50,874 nt of DNA from a virus, in IMG/VR virus record IMGVR_UViG_3300021371_000024, positions 1 to 50,874 of that record. One strand, given 5' to 3'. Positions 69 through 32,768 of this stretch are shown here, one piece after another (position 1 is the stretch's first letter; each line of letters opens with the position of its first letter). Below the pieces are notes generated by a model. It saw nothing but the letters and a program-made list of their open reading frames with translations. It had not been told where the DNA came from and did no database searches. The position numbers and the translations under genes are program-made.

Positions 69-90
69 TTAAGTCCGACGTTGGACCTAT
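69..90. repeat. Palindromic repeat copy 1 (diverged)
   Basis: This is a copy of the 22-bp palindrome whose core is TCCAACGTTGGA. Here the core is TCCGACGTTGGA (one mismatch), flanked by TTAAG and CCTAT. It lies in the left non-coding region. A 21-codon frame from ATG 59 would read it as KSDVGP, the same frame as copies 2, 3 and 6, but that frame has no other support as a gene. Confidence 0.8.
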
Positions 91-298
91 AACATCTTTG
101 ATGTTGCTAAAATGTCACAGTTAGAGTGGTGAAGCTGCAAGTTGAGGTCGCAAGTTTAGCGCATGAGTTTCAGAAAAATATTATCGAAGAGAATATTATT
201 TCTTGCAACAGCGTGTGAAACGGCAGGCGCAGAGGATCGCAAGGCAACTTTCCAACCTCCAAAACTTATACTATCTTCTTACATTTTTAATGATAGAA

Positions 299-327
299 CT
301 ATATCTCACTTCTTGTGAGAGATATAG
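299..327. promoter_or_regulatory. Hairpin ahead of the first gene
   Basis: CTATATCTC (299-307) pairs perfectly with GAGATATAG (319-327) around an 11-nt loop, and CAC/GTG inside the loop could extend the stem. It sits inside a longer-range stem (271-279 with 346-354) and 44 bases before the first start codon. A weak promoter (TTGTGA 313-318, 18 nt, TATAAA 337-342) overlaps its right arm. No T-tract follows, so it is more likely a leader structure or operator than a terminator. Confidence 0.5.
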
Positions 328-370
328 ATTCTCTCATATAAAAATAGAAGATAGATAAAGGAAGCTCAAA

Positions 371-958
371 ATGGCAAATCTCGAAATTCAAAACATCTCA
401 ACTCTCGAAGATCAAGGCAAGGTTCTTTCAGAACAGTGGGCTAAAATCGAAGCTGCTGATAAGAAAAGATTCACTCTTTCAACCAAAGCTGAAGGCTTTG
501 ATACACAGCTTGGAAAGCTGATGGTCGAGCTTAAAGCTGAATCTGGTGGTGAAAGAATTTCACGTCAGAGAATTCGTGAATGTCATCTTCATTTGATCGA
601 CAAACGGCGTAGAAGCGAAGCTCTATGGTTTGTTGAGAATGAAGTAGAATGCAGAGCATTCATTGAAACCTCAAAGAAAGGTTTTACTTCACTGTCTGCT
701 TTGCAGAGAGCAATGAAACAGAAAGCTGCTACCTCTAAAGAGGTAACTGAGACAGCCAGCGAAGCTGCACCAACCAGCGAAGCTGAGACAGTCAGCGAAG
801 CTGTTGTTAAGTCCAACGTTGGACCAGTTACCAAGCAGGTTGTCTTCGACAAGCTTATCAAGGTTTGCTTGGCAAATGACATTGATCCCTTGGATCTGGC
901 TGAAATGCTCATGGAATATGACAGCGTATCAGCAGCAGAAGAAAAGGCTGCAGCATGA
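371..958 (+). CDS. Hypothetical early protein, 195 aa
   Basis: This is the first gene of the rightward arm, with ribosome-binding site AAGGAAG 7-8 nt before ATG 371. Function is not recognised. Residues 1-120 look helical and charged (RQRIRECHLHLIDKRRR), as in nucleic-acid binding proteins. Residues 125-145 hold three 6-aa units ending SEA (ETASEA, APTSEA, ETVSEA). The palindromic repeat then encodes VKSNVGP (about 146-152), and a short acidic helical C-terminal part follows. The repeat thus sits in the low-complexity linker between two probable domains. The stop overlaps the next start (ATGA). Confidence 0.75.
   Translation: MANLEIQNISTLEDQGKVLSEQWAKIEAADKKRFTLSTKAEGFDTQLGKLMVELKAESGGERISRQRIRECHLHLIDKRRRSEALWFVENEVECRAFIETSKKGFTSLSALQRAMKQKAATSKEVTETASEAAPTSEAETVSEAVVKSNVGPVTKQVVFDKLIKVCLANDIDPLDLAEMLMEYDSVSAAEEKAAA
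757..803 (+). repeat. Three 18-bp tandem units in the first gene
   Basis: CAGCGAAGCTG recurs at 757, 775 and 793 with an exact 18-base period. It encodes the three SEA-ending 6-aa units of the linker. The array ends four bases before palindrome copy 2. Confidence 0.75.
807..828. repeat. Palindromic repeat copy 2, inside a gene
   Basis: The core TCCAACGTTGGA is at 812-823, flanked by TTAAG on the left and CCAGT on the right (the right arm is degraded). It is read in frame as K-S-N-V-G-P in the 195-aa protein. Confidence 0.9.
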
Positions 959-1176
959 GATACAAGCAACACACATTCACCAAGGCAGAGGTGCGCTCAC
1001 AGCGTGCCAATGCCCTTCGTGCGCGTCTGGATGAGGCGAGACAGCTTAAGTCCAACGTTGGACCTAAACCATTCACAAGTGTGGATGACCTGATGGAATC
1101 GTCTAAGCCTAAAGGCGCACTCGTGCCAATGATGGGCAAGATGGTGATTGATAGCGGTTGGAAAGATCCAGCTTGA
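955..1176 (+). CDS. Hypothetical protein, 73 aa
   Basis: A small basic protein starting at ATG 955, overlapping the previous stop by four bases (ATGA), which implies translational coupling. The N-terminal half is rich in Arg and Ala and looks helical. Palindrome copy 3 encodes LKSNVGPK around residues 30-37, and a separate C-terminal part follows (SVDDLMESSKPKGALVPMM). Function is not recognised. The palindrome again falls at what looks like a junction between two parts. Confidence 0.65.
   Translation: MRYKQHTFTKAEVRSQRANALRARLDEARQLKSNVGPKPFTSVDDLMESSKPKGALVPMMGKMVIDSGWKDPA
1046..1067. repeat. Palindromic repeat copy 3, inside a gene
   Basis: Full copy, core at 1051-1062, with TTAAG on the left and CCTAA on the right. 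It is in frame in the 73-aa gene as K-S-N-V-G-P. Confidence 0.9.
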
Positions 1177-1182
1177 CAAACT

Positions 1183-1249
1183 CTATGTATAGTATAAGTT
1201 ATTTATACTTGATATTTATTGAAAGTATAAATAACGTATACATATACTA
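1183..1249 (+). promoter_or_regulatory. Dyad plus promoter cassette A
   Basis: GTTATTTATACTT (1198-1210) pairs over 13 bp with AAGTATAAATAAC (1223-1235). An outer stem TAGTATA (1190-1196)/TATACTA (1243-1249) is possible. A sigma70-like promoter overlaps the right arm: TTGAAA 1219-1224, 18 nt, TATACT 1243-1248, leading into the gene at 1263. A near-identical cassette lies at 2019-2084 with one compensated base pair in the stem. An operator over the promoter, or an RNA stem, would both fit. There is no U-tract. Confidence 0.6.
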
Positions 1250-1262
1250 GAAAGGAAGTAAA

Positions 1263-1394
1263 ATGAATACGATTAAAGTTATCACAGATCAGTATGGTTT
1301 CTGGCATGTTTACCGTACTTGTAAAGTCACAGGTCAGCGCTCTATCTCCTTCTTTAAGAATGTGGATGAAGCTAAAGCTGCCCTGCGTAAGTAA
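1263..1394 (+). CDS. Hypothetical micro-protein, 43 aa
   Basis: A short gene with a strong ribosome-binding site (AAAGGAAG, 6-8 nt before ATG 1263). It begins MNTIKVITDQYGFWHVYRTC and ends KNVDEAKAALRK. The pattern of a strand pair, FF and a short helix suggests a small folded phage protein with a beta-hairpin and one helix. Function is unknown. It sits directly behind promoter cassette A. Confidence 0.6.
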   Translation: MNTIKVITDQYGFWHVYRTCKVTGQRSISFFKNVDEAKAALRK

Positions 1395-1395
1395 G

Positions 1396-1440
1396 AAACT
1401 TAAGTCCAACGTTGGACCTAACTAAAGGAAAGTTAAAATG
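1396..1440 (+). repeat. Duplicated 45-bp leader, copy A
   Basis: These 45 bases recur exactly at 2097-2141. They contain AAAC, the full palindrome (1400-1421), the ribosome-binding site AAAGGAAAG and the start codon of the gene at 1438. The identity indicates a recent duplication or gene conversion of a regulatory leader. In RNA the palindrome could form a stem GUCCA/UGGAC with loop ACGU, ending about four bases before the Shine-Dalgarno sequence. Confidence 0.85.
1400..1421. repeat. Palindromic repeat copy 4, in a leader
   Basis: Full copy, core at 1405-1416, located between a stop codon (1392-1394) and the ribosome-binding site of the next gene. It is not in an open frame here. Confidence 0.9.
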
Positions 1441-1701
1441 ATGTATCAAAACTTGTGCCAAACATACTCTGATGTTTACAAAGACTTTCATGGTGTGCGT
1501 CCACCGTCAGGTCATGGCATGTCCTTTATCGAATTGTCAGAGCAAATTGATATGTACCAAAAGTACATAGAAGAAGATCTGGCAGCAGAACGTGCCATTG
1601 AAGATGCAAGCATAAATGCTTGTATGGATCATGGTGCCCCAGATATAGACACCGCCATGCGGTGGCTTGAACAAGCTAACATCCATGCTGAGTGGGTGTA
1701 A
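1438..1701 (+). CDS. Hypothetical protein, 87 aa
   Basis: Starts at ATG 1438 (a second ATG follows directly) behind the duplicated leader. It is an acidic, mainly helical protein with the segments SFIELSEQIDMYQKYIEEDL and DIDTAMRWLEQANIHAEWV. Function is not recognised. Its stop codon TAA is the first part of the long stem of the structured element that follows. Confidence 0.65.
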   Translation: MMYQNLCQTYSDVYKDFHGVRPPSGHGMSFIELSEQIDMYQKYIEEDLAAERAIEDASINACMDHGAPDIDTAMRWLEQANIHAEWV

Positions 1702-1809
1702 GCAGATATAAGTACACTTGGAAGTTATATACATAACTTTCACTATACATAATCAATGGTGTGGAGATAGGCCGACAGTCTACAACCCAAGTGTACTTTT
1801 ACCTGCTTA
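1699..1809 (+). ncRNA. Candidate structured RNA (three-way junction)
   Basis: Bases 1699-1721 and 1787-1809 form a 23-position stem with only two mismatches (A1706/C1802 and T1709/T1799). Inside it, AAGTTAT (1722-1728) and ATAACTT (1733-1739) make a perfect 7-bp hairpin with loop ATAC. GTGTGGA (1759-1765) can pair with TCTACA plus C1786 (1779-1786, A1785 bulged, one G-U). The result would be a three-way junction with a 19-nt joining strand. It lies wholly between genes and ends 22 bases before ATG 1832. I do not recognise a known riboswitch class. It could be a leader regulator, a processed small RNA or an RNase III site. Confidence 0.5.
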
Positions 1810-1831
1810 CCAACTAAACGGAGTTTAAAAA

Positions 1832-2026
1832 ATGTTGGAAATTACTCGTAGATCAATCGTTTCTGGTGCTAAAAACACAATGAAACTTGACGTTACTATG
1901 CATGAGTACTTGCTATGGCGAGAGGGTATGCTCATTCAAGAGGCAATGCCTAACTTGTCTGTAGTGGAACGTGAGTTCCTCATTACTGGAATGAGTGAAG
2001 CGGAGCAAGCTGAACTTTATGTATAG
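1832..2026 (+). CDS. Hypothetical protein, 64 aa
   Basis: Preceded by CGGAG about 10 nt before ATG 1832 and by the structured element. It reads MLEITRRSIVSGAKNTMKLD and then helical segments YLLWREGMLIQEAMPNLS and EREFLITGMSEAEQAEL. Function is unknown. Its stop TAG lies inside the start of the second dyad cassette, so the cassette's left edge provides the C-terminus. Confidence 0.6.
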   Translation: MLEITRRSIVSGAKNTMKLDVTMHEYLLWREGMLIQEAMPNLSVVEREFLITGMSEAEQAELYV

Positions 2027-2084
2027 TATAAGTTATATATACTTGATACTTTAGTGAAAGTATATATAACGTATACATATACTA
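2019..2084 (+). promoter_or_regulatory. Dyad plus promoter cassette B
   Basis: This is a second copy of the 1183-1249 cassette. GTTATATATACTT (2032-2044) pairs with AAGTATATATAAC (2058-2070), followed by the same GTATACATATACTA (2071-2084) carrying TATACT (2078-2083). The -35 equivalent is the weaker GTGAAA (2054-2059). Compared with cassette A, one stem position changed from T-A to A-T on both arms, so symmetry is kept. Palindrome copy 5 follows 16 bases later, in the predicted leader of the gene at 2139. Confidence 0.6.
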
Positions 2085-2096
2085 ACTACCAAATCG

Positions 2097-2141
2097 AAAC
2101 TTAAGTCCAACGTTGGACCTAACTAAAGGAAAGTTAAAATG
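2097..2141 (+). repeat. Duplicated 45-bp leader, copy B
   Basis: Identical to 1396-1440. It contains palindrome copy 5, the AAAGGAAAG ribosome-binding site and the start codon at 2139. Confidence 0.85.
2101..2122. repeat. Palindromic repeat copy 5, in a leader
   Basis: Full copy, core at 2106-2117. It lies between TATACT (2078-2083) and the ribosome-binding site, roughly 10-30 bases after the expected transcription start. An operator or a leader stem would act at such a position. Confidence 0.9.
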
Positions 2142-2351
2142 AATATCTTAGATAAGATAGACGCCCAGCAACAAGCAGCCCATGAAGCATGGCAAGTGAT
2201 GCAAGATCTGCGTGACATACATCGTGACTTGACACGTATTCACAGCTTTGCTACCCCTATTGCAACTGGCGATTTGTTGTCGCCTTCTATAAAAGAAAGC
2301 ATGAACAATATTGTTGAAGCTTGTGAAACATTAATTGGAGAATTGGTATAA
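2139..2351 (+). CDS. Hypothetical protein, 70 aa
   Basis: A small, mostly helical protein beginning MNILDKIDAQQQAAHEAW, likely one or two long helices. Function is unknown. It starts behind duplicated leader B, and its stop shares one base with the next start (TAATG), so the two genes are coupled. Confidence 0.65.
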   Translation: MNILDKIDAQQQAAHEAWQVMQDLRDIHRDLTRIHSFATPIATGDLLSPSIKESMNNIVEACETLIGELV

Positions 2352-2980
2352 TGTATCAACGTGATGTAAATGAAATTAAAGCCTTCGTAAAATGGCGTGG
2401 TCCTGCTGCGTTAGCAAACACTGGCCTGTTTGTGCTGCTTACAATACAAGCTGGCTTATCCACAGTGCGTGGCAGCATGGTCAAGGTCGAGAACAATGGC
2501 TATGATGCAGACTGCCTATGGGGTAAAAAGTCTGATGGCTACAAGTATCTTGTAGATAATGCTGAGTTTCTCTATGGCAAGCTGTATCACATAGCAGATA
2601 CGAAAGGATATGAAAGCGTAGAGGCGTGTGCTGATGTCATCCAGTTGTTCATGCAAGTACCTAACCTTGGCATGGTCAAAGCTGCCTTCCTAGCTCAATG
2701 CTTAGGCTTCAATGTGGCATGTATCGACAGCCACAATATCAAGCGGTTAGGTATATCACCTAACCTTGTGAAGACGCCACCATCAGGCATGAAACCCGCT
2801 ACAGTACGCAAGAAAGTTGAACAGTATGTCGAACTGACACAGCAAGAGGGCAGTGAATACTGGTGGAATACATGGTGCGAATACGTGGCTGGCAATCGTG
2901 CCAATCGTGCCTTAGATACTGGTGACGTTGTGTCTAGGTATCACGTAGAATGCGTAACATATGGATTTGAGCATGGCTAA
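2351..2980 (+). CDS. HhH-GPD-like protein (possible DNA glycosylase relative), 209 aa
   Basis: Residues about 95-132 read FMQVPNLGMVKAAFLAQCLG followed by FNVACIDSHNIKRLG. This resembles the helix-hairpin-helix plus Gly/Pro-Asp signature of base-excision glycosylases (LPGVGRKTA ... VDTHV). The catalytic Asp has a counterpart in CIDSH. The EndoIII-type catalytic Lys position aligns with Val, with a Lys one residue later, so a classical lyase is doubtful. The N-terminal part contains the hydrophobic run ALANTGLFVLLTIQAGL. It could be a DNA repair or damage-recognition protein, or a repurposed fold. The assignment rests on the motif only. Confidence 0.45.
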   Translation: MYQRDVNEIKAFVKWRGPAALANTGLFVLLTIQAGLSTVRGSMVKVENNGYDADCLWGKKSDGYKYLVDNAEFLYGKLYHIADTKGYESVEACADVIQLFMQVPNLGMVKAAFLAQCLGFNVACIDSHNIKRLGISPNLVKTPPSGMKPATVRKKVEQYVELTQQEGSEYWWNTWCEYVAGNRANRALDTGDVVSRYHVECVTYGFEHG

Positions 2981-3143
2981 GAAAACTTCTGTAACATACC
3001 GTAACCCTGTGGCAAAGGCTATGTTACAGGAGCGCAAATCACCACAGGTCGTGCCGCCCAAGAAGGGTGGCAAGGCTAAACGAAACCGCAAACAGGAGAA
3101 GATTGATGCGATACGAAATGCAAAACTTCATCAAGATGACTAA
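2973..3143 (+). CDS. Hypothetical basic protein, 56 aa
   Basis: The start at ATG 2973 (MAKKTSVTYRNPVAKAML) overlaps the end of the previous gene by eight bases. An upstream in-frame ATG at 2961 is possible but lies deeper in that gene. The sequence is strongly basic and Pro/Lys-rich (SPQVVPPKKGGKAKRNRKQ), as in small nucleic-acid-binding proteins. Function is unknown. Confidence 0.6.
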   Translation: MAKKTSVTYRNPVAKAMLQERKSPQVVPPKKGGKAKRNRKQEKIDAIRNAKLHQDD

Positions 3144-3270
3144 GGTTAAGTCCAACGTTGGACCTAATCGAAGGCGGCAAGAGTGGAAGATCGAAAGAAA
3201 GAAAGATCGTTCACGTAAATTAACCCTGCGCAACAGCGCAACCAACTATCGTTCAAACAAAATATCGTAA
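3106..3270 (+). CDS. Possible basic protein carrying the palindrome, 54 aa
   Basis: ATG 3106 follows CAGGAGAAGATTG, a good ribosome-binding site with 7-nt spacing, inside the preceding gene. The product starts MRYEMQNFIKMTKVKSNVGP and continues very basic (NRRRQEWKIERKKDRSRK). Palindrome copy 6 is read in the same frame (KSNVGP) as in the two upstream genes. It overlaps the preceding gene by 38 bases. It may be a real gene or a chance open frame; the Shine-Dalgarno sequence and the shared frame argue for it. Confidence 0.4.
   Translation: MRYEMQNFIKMTKVKSNVGPNRRRQEWKIERKKDRSRKLTLRNSATNYRSNKIS
3146..3167. repeat. Palindromic repeat copy 6
   Basis: Full copy, core at 3151-3162, three bases after the stop of the 56-aa gene and about 120 bases before the gene for a helix-turn-helix protein. 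No further copies were seen to the right of this point. Confidence 0.9.
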
Positions 3271-3282
3271 GGAGATATACAC

Positions 3283-3621
3283 ATGACTAACTCAACAGCA
3301 ACAGCACCCGTAGTAAAAACAGCACACCCAGAATTGTATGCCAACCATACATTTCACATGAGCAAGGCACGTAAGTATACCTACAACTACGCTGTAATTG
3401 ACGAGGTTATCAACGAGCTTTGGGGTGAAATGACTATGGCTGAGATTGCGAAGGTACTCAATGAGTATCCTAACCGCATTGCCTATCGTGTGAAGGTACT
3501 CAAAGACCTTGGTATGATTGAAGGCAAGTACAACATGGAGCGTGGCAAGCTGATGCGTATGCGTAAGATCCTGATCACCTTCTTGGATGATGTGGATGAG
3601 CAGTTGAAAAAGACAGGCTAA
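3283..3621 (+). CDS. Winged-helix/HTH DNA-binding protein, 112 aa
   Basis: A strong ribosome-binding site (AAGGAGATATACAC) precedes ATG 3283. Residues about 48-82 (MTMAEIAKVLNEYPNRIAYR, then VKVLKDLGMIEGKYN) have the form of a helix-turn-helix followed by a wing: the MAEIA helix, a turn, then a recognition helix and LGMIEG. The C-terminus is an acidic helix. It is the only clear regulator-like protein in the early cluster and lies just after the last palindrome copy. It is therefore the best local candidate to bind that palindrome, but this is inference. Confidence 0.6.
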   Translation: MTNSTATAPVVKTAHPELYANHTFHMSKARKYTYNYAVIDEVINELWGEMTMAEIAKVLNEYPNRIAYRVKVLKDLGMIEGKYNMERGKLMRMRKILITFLDDVDEQLKKTG

Positions 3622-5308: not shown

Positions 5309-5448
5309 GGAGACTAAAGACGTGTGAAAACTGTGGTGATGAAGAAGAAGAACTGCACTACACAGAATGGAATAGCGGCACTGAGTGTGGTGATCTATGT
5401 GAAGTGTGCGTTGAAATGTTTATGAGTATGGAGACAGAAGATGATTGA
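5305..5448 (+). CDS. Zinc-ribbon micro-protein, 47 aa
   Basis: AAAGGAGAAAAC precedes ATG 5305. The product has CENC (7-10), then C28, C32 and C35 (CGDLCEVC), giving a probable four-cysteine zinc site, with acidic stretches between. Function is unknown; small zinc ribbons often bind nucleic acid or act as protein adaptors. It overlaps the next start by eight bases. Confidence 0.6.
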   Translation: MRRLKTCENCGDEEEELHYTEWNSGTECGDLCEVCVEMFMSMETEDD

Positions 5449-5827
5449 AGCAGCATTGATGTGCCTTGCACTCAACGTATACTTTGAGGCACGTAGTGAT
5501 ACCATGACGGGGCAGTATGCCGTAGCGCATGTAGTCATCAATCGTGTACAGAGTGACAAGTTCCCAGACGATGTATGCTCTGTGGTCAAGCAGTCACGTA
5601 ATGATGGCACGTGCCAGTTCAGTTGGTACTGCGATGGTAAATCTGACAGGCCACGTGAGCCGTATGCATGGGCCTATGCCCAGATGGTAGCAGCAGACGT
5701 AATGCAGGGTGACGTGACTGACATCACACTAGGTGCAACCCATTACCATGCGAACTATGTACGCCCATATTGGGCTGACAAACTAAAGTACACTGTGACT
5801 TATGGGTCACACCTGTTCTACAAATAG
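5441..5827 (+). CDS. SleB-type cell wall hydrolase (Hydrolase_2 family), 128 aa
   Basis: The whole protein matches the SleB/CwlJ pattern: ALNVYFEARSD with the catalytic Glu at residue 16, then GQYAVAHVVINRV, FPDDVCSVVKQ, CQFSWYCDGKSD, LGATHYHANYVRPYWADKL and GSHLFYK. Enzymes of this family cleave peptidoglycan glycan strands. There is no signal peptide. It is encoded in the rightward arm, about as far as possible from the endolysin at 49868. Roles in late lysis support, entry or superinfection control are all possible. Confidence 0.85.
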   Translation: MIEAALMCLALNVYFEARSDTMTGQYAVAHVVINRVQSDKFPDDVCSVVKQSRNDGTCQFSWYCDGKSDRPREPYAWAYAQMVAADVMQGDVTDITLGATHYHANYVRPYWADKLKYTVTYGSHLFYK

Positions 5828-5909: not shown

Positions 5910-6758
5910 ATGGCTTTTGATATTATTAACAACGACATCATCCCTGAGTACATGGACTTTGAGGTTGAGTTTGAACCTACCAAAGTAAAGGACAAGAAGT
6001 ATGTCATCAATGCTACATCAGGTGAGTATCTTGGTGTAGTAGGTAGCACGTTTACTTGTGCATCACATGGTGACTTCTATCGTGGTGTCCTTGACACAGT
6101 GACTGAGGAACTATCCTTTGATGAAGTAAAGGATGCAAAAATGAACTGGCGTACCGCACGTAATGGTGCATGGGCTATGCTTGACATCACCCTGCCCAAC
6201 ATGAAGACTGTCATTGAGACAGACAAACACAGCACAGAGATTGGCAATCGTATTATATCATTACATGGTATTGATGGATCATGCAGCAATCAGGTGTACT
6301 TTGGTGCCATTGATTTCTTTTGTACCAATGGTATGATTAGAGGAGAGTATGACAAAGTGCGTAAGAAGAACACATCTAACTTTACTATGGAAAGTTTTAT
6401 CTATGAACTGACACGTGCACGTAAGGACTTCTACGAAGAAGCCAGCAAGATGCAAGTGTGGGCACAAACTGACCTCACGTATGTAGATGTAAGCTCACTG
6501 CTTGACAGCATGATTTCATCTAGCCGTAAAGCTGAGAAGATGTACAGCTTGTATATGCAAGAGGCTTCACAGCGTGGGCATAACAAGTGGGCACTGTATT
6601 CTGCCTTTACCAACTATGCCTCGTATGCTGATGAACGTAACGGTTTCAACTTGCGTAACACAGGCAACGACACACAAGCTGTAAGCATGTGGTCACGTGA
6701 GCAAGAGGTATCTAAGTTGGTATCTGATGATCGTTTCATTCAGTTGGAGGCTGCGTAA
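5910..6758 (+). CDS. DUF932-type phage/plasmid protein, 282 aa
   Basis: AAGGAGAAAATAGT gives a good ribosome-binding site before ATG 5910. The pattern fits the DUF932 (phage/plasmid-like TIGR03299) family: an N-terminal region with VINATSGEYLGVVGSTFTCA, a central SLHGIDGSCSNQVYFGAIDF followed by CTNGMI, and a helical C-terminal half. The family is widespread on phages and plasmids, but its biochemical role is not settled. It lies directly before the integrase, whose ribosome-binding site is inside its last codons. Confidence 0.65.
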   Translation: MAFDIINNDIIPEYMDFEVEFEPTKVKDKKYVINATSGEYLGVVGSTFTCASHGDFYRGVLDTVTEELSFDEVKDAKMNWRTARNGAWAMLDITLPNMKTVIETDKHSTEIGNRIISLHGIDGSCSNQVYFGAIDFFCTNGMIRGEYDKVRKKNTSNFTMESFIYELTRARKDFYEEASKMQVWAQTDLTYVDVSSLLDSMISSSRKAEKMYSLYMQEASQRGHNKWALYSAFTNYASYADERNGFNLRNTGNDTQAVSMWSREQEVSKLVSDDRFIQLEAA

Positions 6759-14209: not shown

Positions 14210-15048
14210 TGAACCATCCTGCTGAACTGTCTATTCATTCTTACTTGGTCAATGCGACTAAGGGTGAGTCCTCTATGTCAGAGGAAACCATCCAACAAGT
14301 AGGCGCAGAAGTTATGGAAGCAATGCGTAAACAGTTTGGTGGGGGCAATAAGCGTGACGGGTTTCGCTTACGTATGTCTAACATAGGTAGGCCAACCTGT
14401 CAGCTTTGGTTTGAGAAGAACAAGCCAGAGACTGCGTTGCCCAAGCCAACCACATTTGTAATGAACATGTTACTAGGAGATATAGTTGAGGCTGCTTTCA
14501 AGGGCATATTAAAAGAAGCAGGTGTATCATATCGTGATGCAGAACATGTGACGCTTGAGTTAGACAAGACAAAAGTAAATGGTACGTATGATCTAATTAT
14601 AGACGGTGCCGTAGACGATGTTAAGTCTGCCTCTGATTGGAGTTACAGAAACAAGTTCGAGTCTTTTGATACACTAAAGAACAGTGATCCATTTGGATAT
14701 GTAGGACAGTTAGCTGGCTACGCTAAGGCATCAGGCACTAAGGCTGGTGGCTGGTGGGTAGTAAATAAAGCTAATGGAAATATTAAATATGTTCCTGCTG
14801 ATACCCTTGACATGGAAGAAGAAATCACTACATTAAATAAGACAGTCGATACTGTCGAGAGTAATGAGTTTAAACGTTGCTTCAGCCCTGTACCTGAAAC
14901 ATTCAGGGGGAAGGCAACGGGTAATACCATTCTCAATGATAGCTGTAAGTTCTGTGACTACAGGTTCAGTTGCTTTGAAGGGTTGACAGAGACTGAATCA
15001 CGAGTGTCACAGGCTAAGAACAAACCTACAGTTGCGTACATAGATTAA
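14209..15048 (+). CDS. Cas4/RecB-like PD-(D/E)XK exonuclease with iron-sulfur cysteines, 279 aa
   Basis: Nuclease residues: E94 in LLGDIVEAAF, D132 in LIIDGAVDDVKSA, and the D137-x-K139 pair, then YVGQLAGYAKA (Q...Y motif of RecB nucleases). Cysteine C64 (GRPTCQLWFE) and C246, C249, C255 (CKFCDYRFSC) fit the 4Fe-4S cluster of Cas4/AddB-type enzymes. The start shares a base with the previous stop (TAATG); a second Met at residue 23 is possible. It would resect DNA ends in phage recombination or host DNA breakdown. Confidence 0.8.
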   Translation: MNHPAELSIHSYLVNATKGESSMSEETIQQVGAEVMEAMRKQFGGGNKRDGFRLRMSNIGRPTCQLWFEKNKPETALPKPTTFVMNMLLGDIVEAAFKGILKEAGVSYRDAEHVTLELDKTKVNGTYDLIIDGAVDDVKSASDWSYRNKFESFDTLKNSDPFGYVGQLAGYAKASGTKAGGWWVVNKANGNIKYVPADTLDMEEEITTLNKTVDTVESNEFKRCFSPVPETFRGKATGNTILNDSCKFCDYRFSCFEGLTETESRVSQAKNKPTVAYID

Positions 15049-29855: not shown

Positions 29856-31766
29856 TTATTGTCTATCTTCTTGGCTGTATTCTAATAGGGCAGTGTCTAA
29901 TGTAAAGGTAGGGTTAGTAGAAAAATCTTCTAGCCTTATTGCCACAGTCTTACCAGAACCAATAATATTGGTATTATAAACTTTATCTAATTCCCCACCA
30001 AATTTACTAGCATTAGAAACATCACCACCAACTGGTAGTACGTAAATTTCTATAGTGTCTGTTGTTAAAACACCACTAGATAAAACAACTGTAGTATCAT
30101 ATGCTGTAGCTGTAACAGCGGGGGATACGGTCACAACAGTATTATTAAAATTAGATACAACTGCTGCTTTAATAGTTTCAGTAGTTGATACAGTAGAGAC
30201 ACTATATCCAGATTGAATTGCGCCATTTTTATATACTACAATTCTTGATGCATCTGTTCCTACATCATACTTTACTTTTTGTATTAAAAAATTTGTTTGT
30301 CCATTTGTGGGGGGCGTATATCCTGTTGCAGTTTTCCATACAGCCAGTTTGTAAAATACTGAAGATGATGCGCCCAAAAAAAACACCTCACTACCAGTAC
30401 TAGCTATTTGTTGCGTAGAGGGCTGAACTACTTTTGTGTCTGTAGCTGATGCAAAATCATATTTAATATTTAAATCTAACGACATATTTGCAGTAGGCTC
30501 TGCATACAAAGTCATCTTGTAAAATGTCTTACGTACTTGTGGATCTGATATAGGCATAAAAGGCGACTCGTAAATAGCTTCTATAGAGGCACCATCAAAG
30601 TTAGAACCTGTTTCCATAACATAAATATAACCATCATTATTAGCAAAAGCTAAAGTCTCTAATGTAGATGTGTATCTGCTATCTGCAATAAAAGCTTTTA
30701 TACCCTTAACAGTAGACCACGCTAATCCACCCGCACCCTGAGATATAAATTTAGTTGCTATTAAACCTTTAGCAGCTTCTGGCTGTTCAGATTCAATATA
30801 TGAAAATATTCTATACTGAGCTTTTTCTTTTAATACAACAGAACAGTAGTTAGGAGACTGCGCTAAAAATTTAGTTGCATCTTTTACTATGGAATCAGAT
30901 GCAATATCCAAACCAAAGTCACCAATACGATCTGTTGCACTTAATAGTCTTATACCATCAGGGGCGAGATACATAATATCACCGCCAACTTCCTGAATAG
31001 TATCACCGTTGATACAACCAATACGGTCTGTAATAGGCGATACTTGAAAGTCTGCGGAACTACTTCCAGTAAGTCTTTTAATTGTATCAGTAGTAAATAT
31101 AATAAGTTGTTCACGAAAAACTGCTAACCCTGTAATATCGTTTGCTACGTTTATACTTCCTGCACCATTAGCTACATTAAAATCATGTGTACTAAAAGGA
31201 GCAGTAAAGTATAGATTATTTCCTTTAGCGTAAAAGGCAGTGTTTTTAAAAATAGCTACGTCTGAAGCGCCTTGTGGATCATTTGTTCCAATGTCATACG
31301 TATCCCCACTACTATCATTTTTAAAAAAGTCAAAAGTATTGCCTGATGTATTGTATATAGCAGGAAAGTTTTTACTATCTACAAATATAACTTTATCATC
31401 ACCATCTAAATTATACAAAATACTTTTGGCTTTACTACCATTAGTAAGTGCACTTTCACCTAGACTAGCCCATGTAGTACCAGTACCATAATAGTATTCA
31501 GTTTTATTGTTACTATTTTTACGTGCAGTTACGATACGACCTGAACTAATAACTTTAAGTGCTAGTATAGTACCGCTACCTGCAACTTGTGTTGTACTAT
31601 ACTTTGAGTATCCTTTTAACTTAGAGTAACCACCCTCTTTATTTACCTCAAAGTTTTGTAGTAACGTAGCAGAACCTACAGCATTAGTACCCTGCTGTAG
31701 TGCAGTAAGATTAGAGATAAGACCACCTCTAAACTCAATAGGAAATGTCTGCCATTGTGTTGCCAT
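29856..31766 (-). CDS. Tail tube B-like (nozzle) protein, 636 aa
   Basis: The N-terminus (FPIEFRGGLISNLTALQQGT then LLQNFEVNKEGGYSKLKGYS) is typical of T7 gp12-like and related podovirus tail tubular B proteins, which form the nozzle. The body is beta-rich with propeller-like spacing (ALKVISSGRIVTARKN, IYNTSGNTFDFF, YLAPDGIRLLSATD). It is coupled by one base to the tube A-like gene before it. Confidence 0.7.
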   Translation of the reverse strand: MATQWQTFPIEFRGGLISNLTALQQGTNAVGSATLLQNFEVNKEGGYSKLKGYSKYSTTQVAGSGTILALKVISSGRIVTARKNSNNKTEYYYGTGTTWASLGESALTNGSKAKSILYNLDGDDKVIFVDSKNFPAIYNTSGNTFDFFKNDSSGDTYDIGTNDPQGASDVAIFKNTAFYAKGNNLYFTAPFSTHDFNVANGAGSINVANDITGLAVFREQLIIFTTDTIKRLTGSSSADFQVSPITDRIGCINGDTIQEVGGDIMYLAPDGIRLLSATDRIGDFGLDIASDSIVKDATKFLAQSPNYCSVVLKEKAQYRIFSYIESEQPEAAKGLIATKFISQGAGGLAWSTVKGIKAFIADSRYTSTLETLAFANNDGYIYVMETGSNFDGASIEAIYESPFMPISDPQVRKTFYKMTLYAEPTANMSLDLNIKYDFASATDTKVVQPSTQQIASTGSEVFFLGASSSVFYKLAVWKTATGYTPPTNGQTNFLIQKVKYDVGTDASRIVVYKNGAIQSGYSVSTVSTTETIKAAVVSNFNNTVVTVSPAVTATAYDTTVVLSSGVLTTDTIEIYVLPVGGDVSNASKFGGELDKVYNTNIIGSGKTVAIRLEDFSTNPTFTLDTALLEYSQEDRQ

Positions 31767-32449
31767 TAAAAGTGTACTCGCAAGTCACGTACATACTCTG
31801 TACGATTTATATTTATACTACGTAAATGCTTAATGCCCTGTGTAAATTTTTGCATAGCTAATTGCGATGCTTGCATATCACCTCTAAATTGATATACATA
31901 GTACATTGCACCATCTACTATAACATAGCGATACTGTTCAGGAAGATTAGGTACATCAGAATGTAACTCAAGATCAAATCCCATTGTATAATACTCGTAA
32001 ATTAACTCATAGTCTTTATCAGGAGTAGGTACTACTAACAACTCTCGACTAGGGGCACGTACTATATAACGTGGAGTTCCTGTACTACTAGAGTTATACT
32101 CAGTATCTACATGTTTGTCAAGGTATTCTTCATAGCTAAGTACTTTAAGTTTAATAGTATTTGTTGCTAGGGTATCATCACGTTTAATTCTAAAACTATT
32201 CATGTTAATTGTTTTTGCATCATAAGGATAGCTATAGCGAGTTTCACCTGCAAGCAATACTTCTGTTTCTTCTACGTGATTCCAAGGCCATTCATACTCT
32301 TCTTGTTGTATGTGACGAATAGCAGAGTTTACTGCATCTTTAGCGAAACTATAAAAACCTGTAGTAACAGTAAAGTTAGAAGAAGTTAATTCGACTTCAT
32401 TAAGCCTACGATTTATATCATTAACTAATCCTAGATAATCGTATGCCAT
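31766..32449 (-). CDS. Tail tube A-like (gatekeeper/adaptor) protein, 227 aa
   Basis: MAYDYLGLVNDINRRLNEVE, then FAKDAVNSAIRHIQQEEYEW, fits the helical start of T7 gp11-like proteins. A beta part (YSYPYDAKTINMNSFRI) and a helical end (MQASQLAMQKFTQGIKHL) follow. It would connect the portal to the nozzle protein. The codons around 32093-32121 contain a consensus promoter directed at the nozzle and downstream genes. Confidence 0.7.
   Translation of the reverse strand: MAYDYLGLVNDINRRLNEVELTSSNFTVTTGFYSFAKDAVNSAIRHIQQEEYEWPWNHVEETEVLLAGETRYSYPYDAKTINMNSFRIKRDDTLATNTIKLKVLSYEEYLDKHVDTEYNSSSTGTPRYIVRAPSRELLVVPTPDKDYELIYEYYTMGFDLELHSDVPNLPEQYRYVIVDGAMYYVYQFRGDMQASQLAMQKFTQGIKHLRSININRTEYVRDLRVHF
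32093..32121 (-). promoter_or_regulatory. Sigma70 promoter inside the tail tube A gene
   Basis: On the minus strand TTGACA (32121-32116), 17 nt, TATAAC (32098-32093). It would start RNA near 32086, inside the gene, and drive the tail-nozzle gene (29856-31766), the fibre and the membrane proteins. The same -10 sequence is found at 13269 and 42135. Confidence 0.6.
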
Positions 32450-32450
32450 A

Positions 32451-32768
32451 TTACTTCTCCTTTACACGTAAAAATACAGAACGTTCATACTGCAATGCAC
32501 CTACTGTAGTTATTTTACAAGTAATCTTATATCGCTTATTGTTAGTTCCTAAACTTAATCTAATAGTAGCTACGGTTAATGTGTTTGTAGCTTGTACAAA
32601 CTGTAGTCCATTTACAACTTGTGCAGGGCTTACTTCTGTTTTAACATTGTTTGCATCATCTATAAACCAATCGACACCAGAAATAGTGTCTGTACCTAAG
32701 AAACGTGACCAATCAATATTATAGTCAAGTAATTCATCTTTATCTTTATCAGGCCATTTGTATGACAT
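32451..32768 (-). CDS. Hypothetical tail-associated beta protein, 105 aa
   Basis: It begins MSYKWPDKDKDELLDYNIDW and continues as beta strands (LTVATIRLSLGTNNKRYKIT, ALQYERSVFLRVKEK), a pattern of Ig-like phage tail adaptor proteins that hold fibres. It lies between tail tube and fibre-type genes. The adaptor role is inferred. Confidence 0.55.
   Translation of the reverse strand: MSYKWPDKDKDELLDYNIDWSRFLGTDTISGVDWFIDDANNVKTEVSPAQVVNGLQFVQATNTLTVATIRLSLGTNNKRYKITCKITTVGALQYERSVFLRVKEK

Follow-up and report, generated by a model that had tools for sequence, protein, structure and literature searches.

The stretch analysed here, all 50,874 nucleotides (nt) of IMG/VR record IMGVR_UViG_3300021371_000024 (hereafter the window), comes from an HMO-2011-type phage, with DNA polymerase identities of 72% to CRP-345, 70% to CRP-1 and 62% to HMO-2011, and its integrase and replication modules are as reported for this group (PMC9038755, PMC6918029). 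Phages of the HMO-2011 type rank among the sea's most abundant, and we found no published account of early-gene or lysogeny control in them; the available parts of these two papers make no mention of the palindromes, a repressor or the leader RNA. The left 3.2 kb of the window carries six copies of a 22-bp palindrome, together with a gene at positions 371–958 whose product is very probably, judging from comparative sequence data, a previously undescribed regulator with the palindromes as its docking sites.

Palindromic sites and the gene that accompanies them

The palindrome TTAAGTCCAACGTTGGACC starts at positions 69, 807, 1046, 1400, 2101 and 3146, the copy at 69 carrying a single A-to-G change, which gives the consensus TTAAGTCC[A/G]ACGTTGGACC. 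No further copy with up to 3 mismatches occurs in the 50,874 nt, and the expectation from 100 shuffles is 0. These searches bear out the preliminary description of the window, which had reported the six copies and their confinement to the left end, a CCTAA right flank in four of them (1046, 1400, 2101 and 3146) and symmetry over 22 bases apart from one pair, which proves to be pair 4/19. Its statement that the copies do not form a CRISPR (clustered regularly interspaced short palindromic repeats) or simple tandem array also holds, the spacings of 239–1045 nt being neither regular nor tandem. The core GTCCAACGTTGGAC, perfectly palindromic over 14 bp, is the only such palindrome repeated in the window. 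Four copies (69, 807, 1046 and 3146) fit the frame -K-S-N/D-V-G-P-, the one at 69 only in a 21-codon leader frame, while the other three lie within open reading frames (ORFs), each in the -SNVG- frame; the copies at 1400 and 2101 stand immediately 5′ of a Shine-Dalgarno (SD) sequence and ATG.

Besides the isolates CRP-345 and CRP-1, ~30 more IMG/VR contigs have the core in several clustered copies. Because the bare 14-mer gives many single chance matches in IMG/VR, only contigs with multiple copies or with the protein were used. The flanks are constant inside a clade and vary between clades (TTAA/CTAA, AAACC/ACTTT, AACTA/TTAA, AACAA/AATTT), and HMO-2011, in which the exact core is absent, has five sites of like build, GTCCGACAGCGGAC, one of them inverted. 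In general form the site reads GTCC-RA-nn-TY-GGAC, a 14-bp palindrome whose flanks are clade-specific. Comparison with related HMO-2011-type phages, one of the checks named in the preliminary description, found the sites kept at corresponding places.

Comparison of left arms identified 371–958 as the gene that accompanies the sites. Among 12 isolates searched, its profile matches HMO-2011 gp74 (E 4e-17), CRP-1 gp01 and CRP-345 gp01, and these three phages carry 5–6 sites per genome; nine isolates (CRP-2, 3, 9, 207, 212, 235, 603, 738 and HTVC033P) gave no match to the gene and have GTCC-N6-GGAC 0–1 times, the level expected by chance. All 80 IMG/VR loci retrieved by the protein alone carry site arrays: 76 have at least two GTCC-N6-GGAC sites, one locus truncated by the contig end shows a single site, and the remaining three have five CCCC-N6-GGGG sites each at corresponding places (TAACCCCAACGTTGGGGCTAA in loci L199 and L200, TAACCCCGATGTCGGGGCTAA in L217). 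The conserved module consists of a leader site, a structured leader RNA, the gene and then, usually, 4–7 sites over the following ~4 kb. Across 79 genomes the 364 sites, usually 3–7 per genome and with ORF classes assigned automatically, comprise 124 intergenic sites, 64 in the regulator gene, 60 leader sites, 93 that share the SNVG frame within other ORFs, and 23 with a different frame. As many as 118 of the 124 intergenic sites lie 14–34 nt ahead of an ATG with an SD sequence, and 63 of the 64 regulator-gene sites are in the SNVG frame. An integrase is present in 23 of 30 gene-bearing records searched, including all of at least 40 kb; in one genome (G005, 31500–32580) it appears as two overlapping frames.

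Some matches were not accepted as sites. The GTCCAAGGTTGGAC match in integrase genes (codon ~286; CRP-345 7079, CRP-1 6868 and relatives) is probably a coding coincidence rather than an extra site: SKVG is encoded there, within a conserved stretch of the integrase, and the window lacks the match. GTCC/GGAC matches centred on CTTCGG or CTTTGG (L198, L262) are tetraloop hairpins. A rule restricting the centre to pyrimidine–purine steps (CG, TG or CA) was dropped, since GG and CC centres occur at good sites. CRP-345 (MZ892990.1) has a lone GTCCAACATTGGAC site at 14469–14482, distant from its early array, and in L247 (~300–1100) the regulator gene is apparently frameshifted N-terminally with seven sites kept, pointing to either a sequencing error or a virulent derivative.

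Concerted change of sites and helix residues

In 11 of the 79 distinct genomes G/C replaces A/T at positions 5/10 in all or nearly all sites, giving GTCCGA..TCGGAC in place of GTCCAA..TTGGAC. On the protein tree this base-5 switch requires 9 changes, at least 7 of them forced by supported branches, and again 9 on a tree with suspect columns masked. In seven phylogenetically independent pairs, T109 was lost in 7/7, K113 accompanied G in 6.6 and A116 in 4.5, so that residues 109, 113 and 116 head the 156 columns (median 0.89). Residue 149 ranks fourth; its codon overlaps the in-gene site, so that this column serves as a built-in positive control. Sign tests gave p values of 0.016 (residue 113) and 0.031 (residue 109), uncorrected for the 584 traits scanned; the evidential weight lies on the top three columns sharing one face of one helix, with spacing i, i+4, i+7 on predicted helix 108–127.

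The sister pair L200/L217 differs at 9 of 210 residues, five of them in that helix, and at base 5 in 5/5 sites, with neighbouring DNA ~92–98% identical over most of its length; in window numbering the differences are S107N, T109S, R113K, K116A, Q117K and N149D plus three in the linker. The window clade has an intermediate helix (S109, R113, K116), and half-converted sites, e.g. GTCCG..TGGAC, occur in 6/6 of its phages versus about three other (T109) genomes. This recurrent, genome-wide switching of sites offers a clear natural example of regulator–operator co-evolution, and it looks like the repeated invention of new immunity types. Natural pairs that isolate specificity-setting residues are L200/L217, L245/L248, L207/L210 and L233/L228; if the protein binds the palindromes, the L200 and L217 proteins, given the site pair CCCCAACGTTGGGG / CCCCGATGTCGGGG, should each prefer their own sites.

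AlphaFold2 prediction from 56 sequences gave a helical domain at residues ~12–123 (predicted local distance difference test, pLDDT, ~90), a disordered, low-confidence stretch at 124–151 that holds the in-gene site, and a small helical C-terminal part. Residues 77–79, which are changed in the CCCC clade, begin predicted helix 78–89. The best BFVD match is a 205-residue viral protein of the same length as HMO-2011 gp74; gp74 and CRP-1 gp01 are annotated as 'hypothetical protein'.

Features of the early left arm of the window
Feature	Position	Strand	Basis
Leader site; core 73–86 = GTCCGACGTTGGAC, half-converted	69–90	no strand	sequence match; upstream of the gene in 59/79 genomes
Structured leader RNA, conserved	140–241	+	between leader site and regulator gene; compensatory changes
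Proposed palindrome-binding regulator gene, 195 residues	371–958	+	co-occurrence, covariation, structure prediction
Proposed recognition helix, codons 106–117 of 371–958; specificity residues 109, 113, 116	686–721	+	covariation, predicted structure
In-gene site of the regulator, codons 146–151 (KSNVGP), disordered linker	807–828	no strand	sequence match
Site in ORF 955–1176, codon 31, KSNVGP frame	1046–1067	no strand	sequence match
Intergenic site directly 5′ of SD and ATG of ORF 1438–1701	1400–1421	no strand	sequence match
Intergenic site directly 5′ of SD and ATG of ORF 2139–2351	2101–2122	no strand	sequence match
Site near the start of small ORF 3136–3270, KSNVGP frame	3146–3167	no strand	sequence match
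Winged-helix-like neighbour protein, 112 residues; ranked lower as binder	3283–3621	+	helix-turn-helix-like profile matches

Proposed function and competing explanations

No reading other than binding of the palindromes by the 371–958 product explains why all sites change in concert with the helix residues, and on this comparative evidence we hold such binding to be very likely. DNA as the target, dimerisation, repression and immunity follow less strongly. The N-terminal helical domain would read the half-site GTCCR, with base 5 contacted by residues 109, 113 and 116 and bases 1–2 possibly by residues 77–79, and the two-fold symmetry of the site suggests two subunits per site, as in phage 434 with its 14-bp operators. 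Autoregulation is implied by one site in the leader and another within the regulator's own gene; the remaining sites, positioned immediately ahead of ribosome-binding sites or where the coding sequence of the early operon tolerates them, would most likely block early transcription, with repression and superinfection immunity as the outcome in the integrase-bearing phages. A sequence-specific nucleic-acid-binding regulator that represses through stoperator-like sites and confers immunity is the explanation we favour as probable, since it fits the positions of the sites, those suggestive of autoregulation among them, the presence of an integrase and the recurrent specificity switches that immunity leads one to expect. 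Of the three suggestions in the preliminary description, an operator set for an early regulon is strongly supported by the conserved sites and their co-evolution with an early protein; neither a mobile element nor tandem origin iterons are supported, and partition, likewise unsupported, keeps a low probability.

Several observations weigh against such a repressor. The product has no significant match in Pfam, PHROG or NCBIfam, no recognisable domain and no fold match in the PDB, and the half-site change from GTCC to CCCC is a single event. The coding strand carries the central TG in 43 of the 50 independent flank clusters of intergenic sites (p about 1e-7), and an upstream T.AA signal adds to this polarity, which counts against plain two-fold DNA binding, as a plain two-fold site predicts none; strand-specific deamination as its source is unsupported by base composition, A exceeding T. 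A search for a conserved promoter ahead of the intergenic sites found none, and no prophage with the regulator gene was detected in 84,980 species genomes. Lysogeny of CRP-1 is unproven (PMC6918029); a relative, CRP-3, integrates into its host (PMC6918029) but has neither the regulator gene nor palindrome sites.

The polarity is what one would expect if the protein instead bound an RNA hairpin, GUCCR-AYGU-YGGAC, in early transcripts, controlling translation or RNA stability or acting in antitermination as nut/boxB does. The sites lie in transcribed regions with sense polarity (TG over CA, 43:7), nearly all intergenic ones (118/124) stand at that 14–34 nt distance before an ATG with SD, half-converted sites mostly take the G·U-compatible form GTCCG..TGGAC, and a structured leader RNA adjoins the leader site. 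Yet pair 6/9 (A/T) is conserved though a normal hairpin loop could not be closed by it, conservation is lowest at the centre, where the loop would form, and stem changes occur only genome-wide although pair swaps at single sites would be tolerable in RNA; moreover, flank symmetry extends past mismatched positions, and sites in mid-gene are hard to reconcile with translation control. We consider RNA hairpin binding unlikely, and its fuller version, in which a new protein family and the leader RNA would form a polar antitermination or riboregulation system with repeatedly switched specificity, is likewise doubtful; if true, some of the commonest phages in the ocean would have acquired regulatory types of their own. 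The precedent is lambda N with nut/boxB, where short hairpin-capable sites in early transcripts form phage-specific pairs with the protein. Lambda N is a short arginine-rich peptide, whereas here a folded domain of ~110 residues is predicted and the sites are many; no boxA was found by eye.

The remaining explanations fare worse. Dispersed origin or parS-like partition sites bound by the same protein would suit the clustering near one end beside replication genes, and dispersed partition sites exist in N15; but these sites are single and 0.2–1 kb apart rather than tandem iterons, a scan of left-arm proteins, which was not exhaustive, revealed no ParA-like protein, and the placement before SD sequences is left unexplained, making a replication or partition function improbable. 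The winged-helix-like protein encoded at 3283–3621, downstream of the last site, has helix-turn-helix (HTH)-like profile matches, adjoins the array and occurs in many site-bearing phages. It was dropped as the binder because it is undetected in HMO-2011, which has five sites; it is also undetected in several other site-bearing loci and leaves the covariation with residues 109, 113 and 116 of the other protein unexplained, so that we attach very little probability to it. A small mobile palindromic element, REP- or RPE-like and inserting in intergenic and coding DNA, would explain a multi-copy palindrome found also in frame within ORFs; the copies, however, are not scattered but occupy corresponding places in divergent phages, those of one genome change together, none occurs elsewhere in the window, and the flanks are unlike those of one inserted unit. 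Concerted change and fixed places leave a mobile element unsupported, and its likelihood is negligible.

Among known repressors, that of phage 434 binds a 14-bp operator with conserved outer half-sites and a variable centre, and its specificity alters via few helix residues. The present sites share the length and variable centre, and a dimer like that of 434 or lambda CI would fit a protein made up of a DNA-binding domain, a linker and a C-terminal part. The CI sites are paired at two divergent promoters, whereas those described here are spread over kilobases, and no CI/HTH_3 domain was detected in the 371–958 product. Dispersal recalls instead the L5-type cluster A mycobacteriophages, in which many repressor sites are scattered in short intergenic gaps of early operons and site specificity as well as immunity varies among related phages (PMC9283540, PMC6550527); the 364 sites in 79 genomes, 124 of them intergenic, show the same dispersed multi-site pattern. 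L5 sites are 13-bp, asymmetric and more than 20 per genome, in contrast to palindromes usually numbering 4–7 per genome, several inside genes. L5 stoperators are polar relative to transcription (PMC9283540), and the palindromic sites, despite their symmetry, are still polar in centre and flanks. The L5 repressor is a monomer with an HTH and the 371–958 product belongs to an unrelated family. Now that HMO-2011-type phages have a candidate master regulator with its sites, a long-standing question about streamlined marine bacteria, that of lysogeny and immunity to superinfection, becomes testable.

Leader RNA and other elements of the early region

The ~90-nt leader element is supported by compensatory changes in 8 of 15 predicted pairs, one of which, for example, is A-U in 26 sequences and G-C in 11 with zero exceptions. 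It combines invariant AGUUU and GAAAC with a covarying central helix, and the two invariant motifs possibly form kissing loops or a pseudoknot. Its positions are 53952–54036 in HMO-2011, 54508–54592 in CRP-345 and 53834–53918 in CRP-1; it was not found in the nine isolates lacking the module nor in some gene-bearing lineages. With no match in Rfam, it is a candidate for a new RNA class.

A second repeat of ~65 bp occurs at 1179–1249 and 2013–2084 of the window and at 6645–6719 and 6965–7039 in L199; it is AT-rich and imperfectly inverted, lies upstream of small early ORFs and holds a promoter-like TTGAAA/GTGAAA-18-TATACT. Between two small early ORFs lies a 24-nt inverted repeat (1698–1721 and 1787–1810) with 92% complementarity and arms 65 nt apart, and an endolysin- or cell-wall-hydrolase-like gene at 5441–5827 lies within the early left arm, at a distance from the structural genes.

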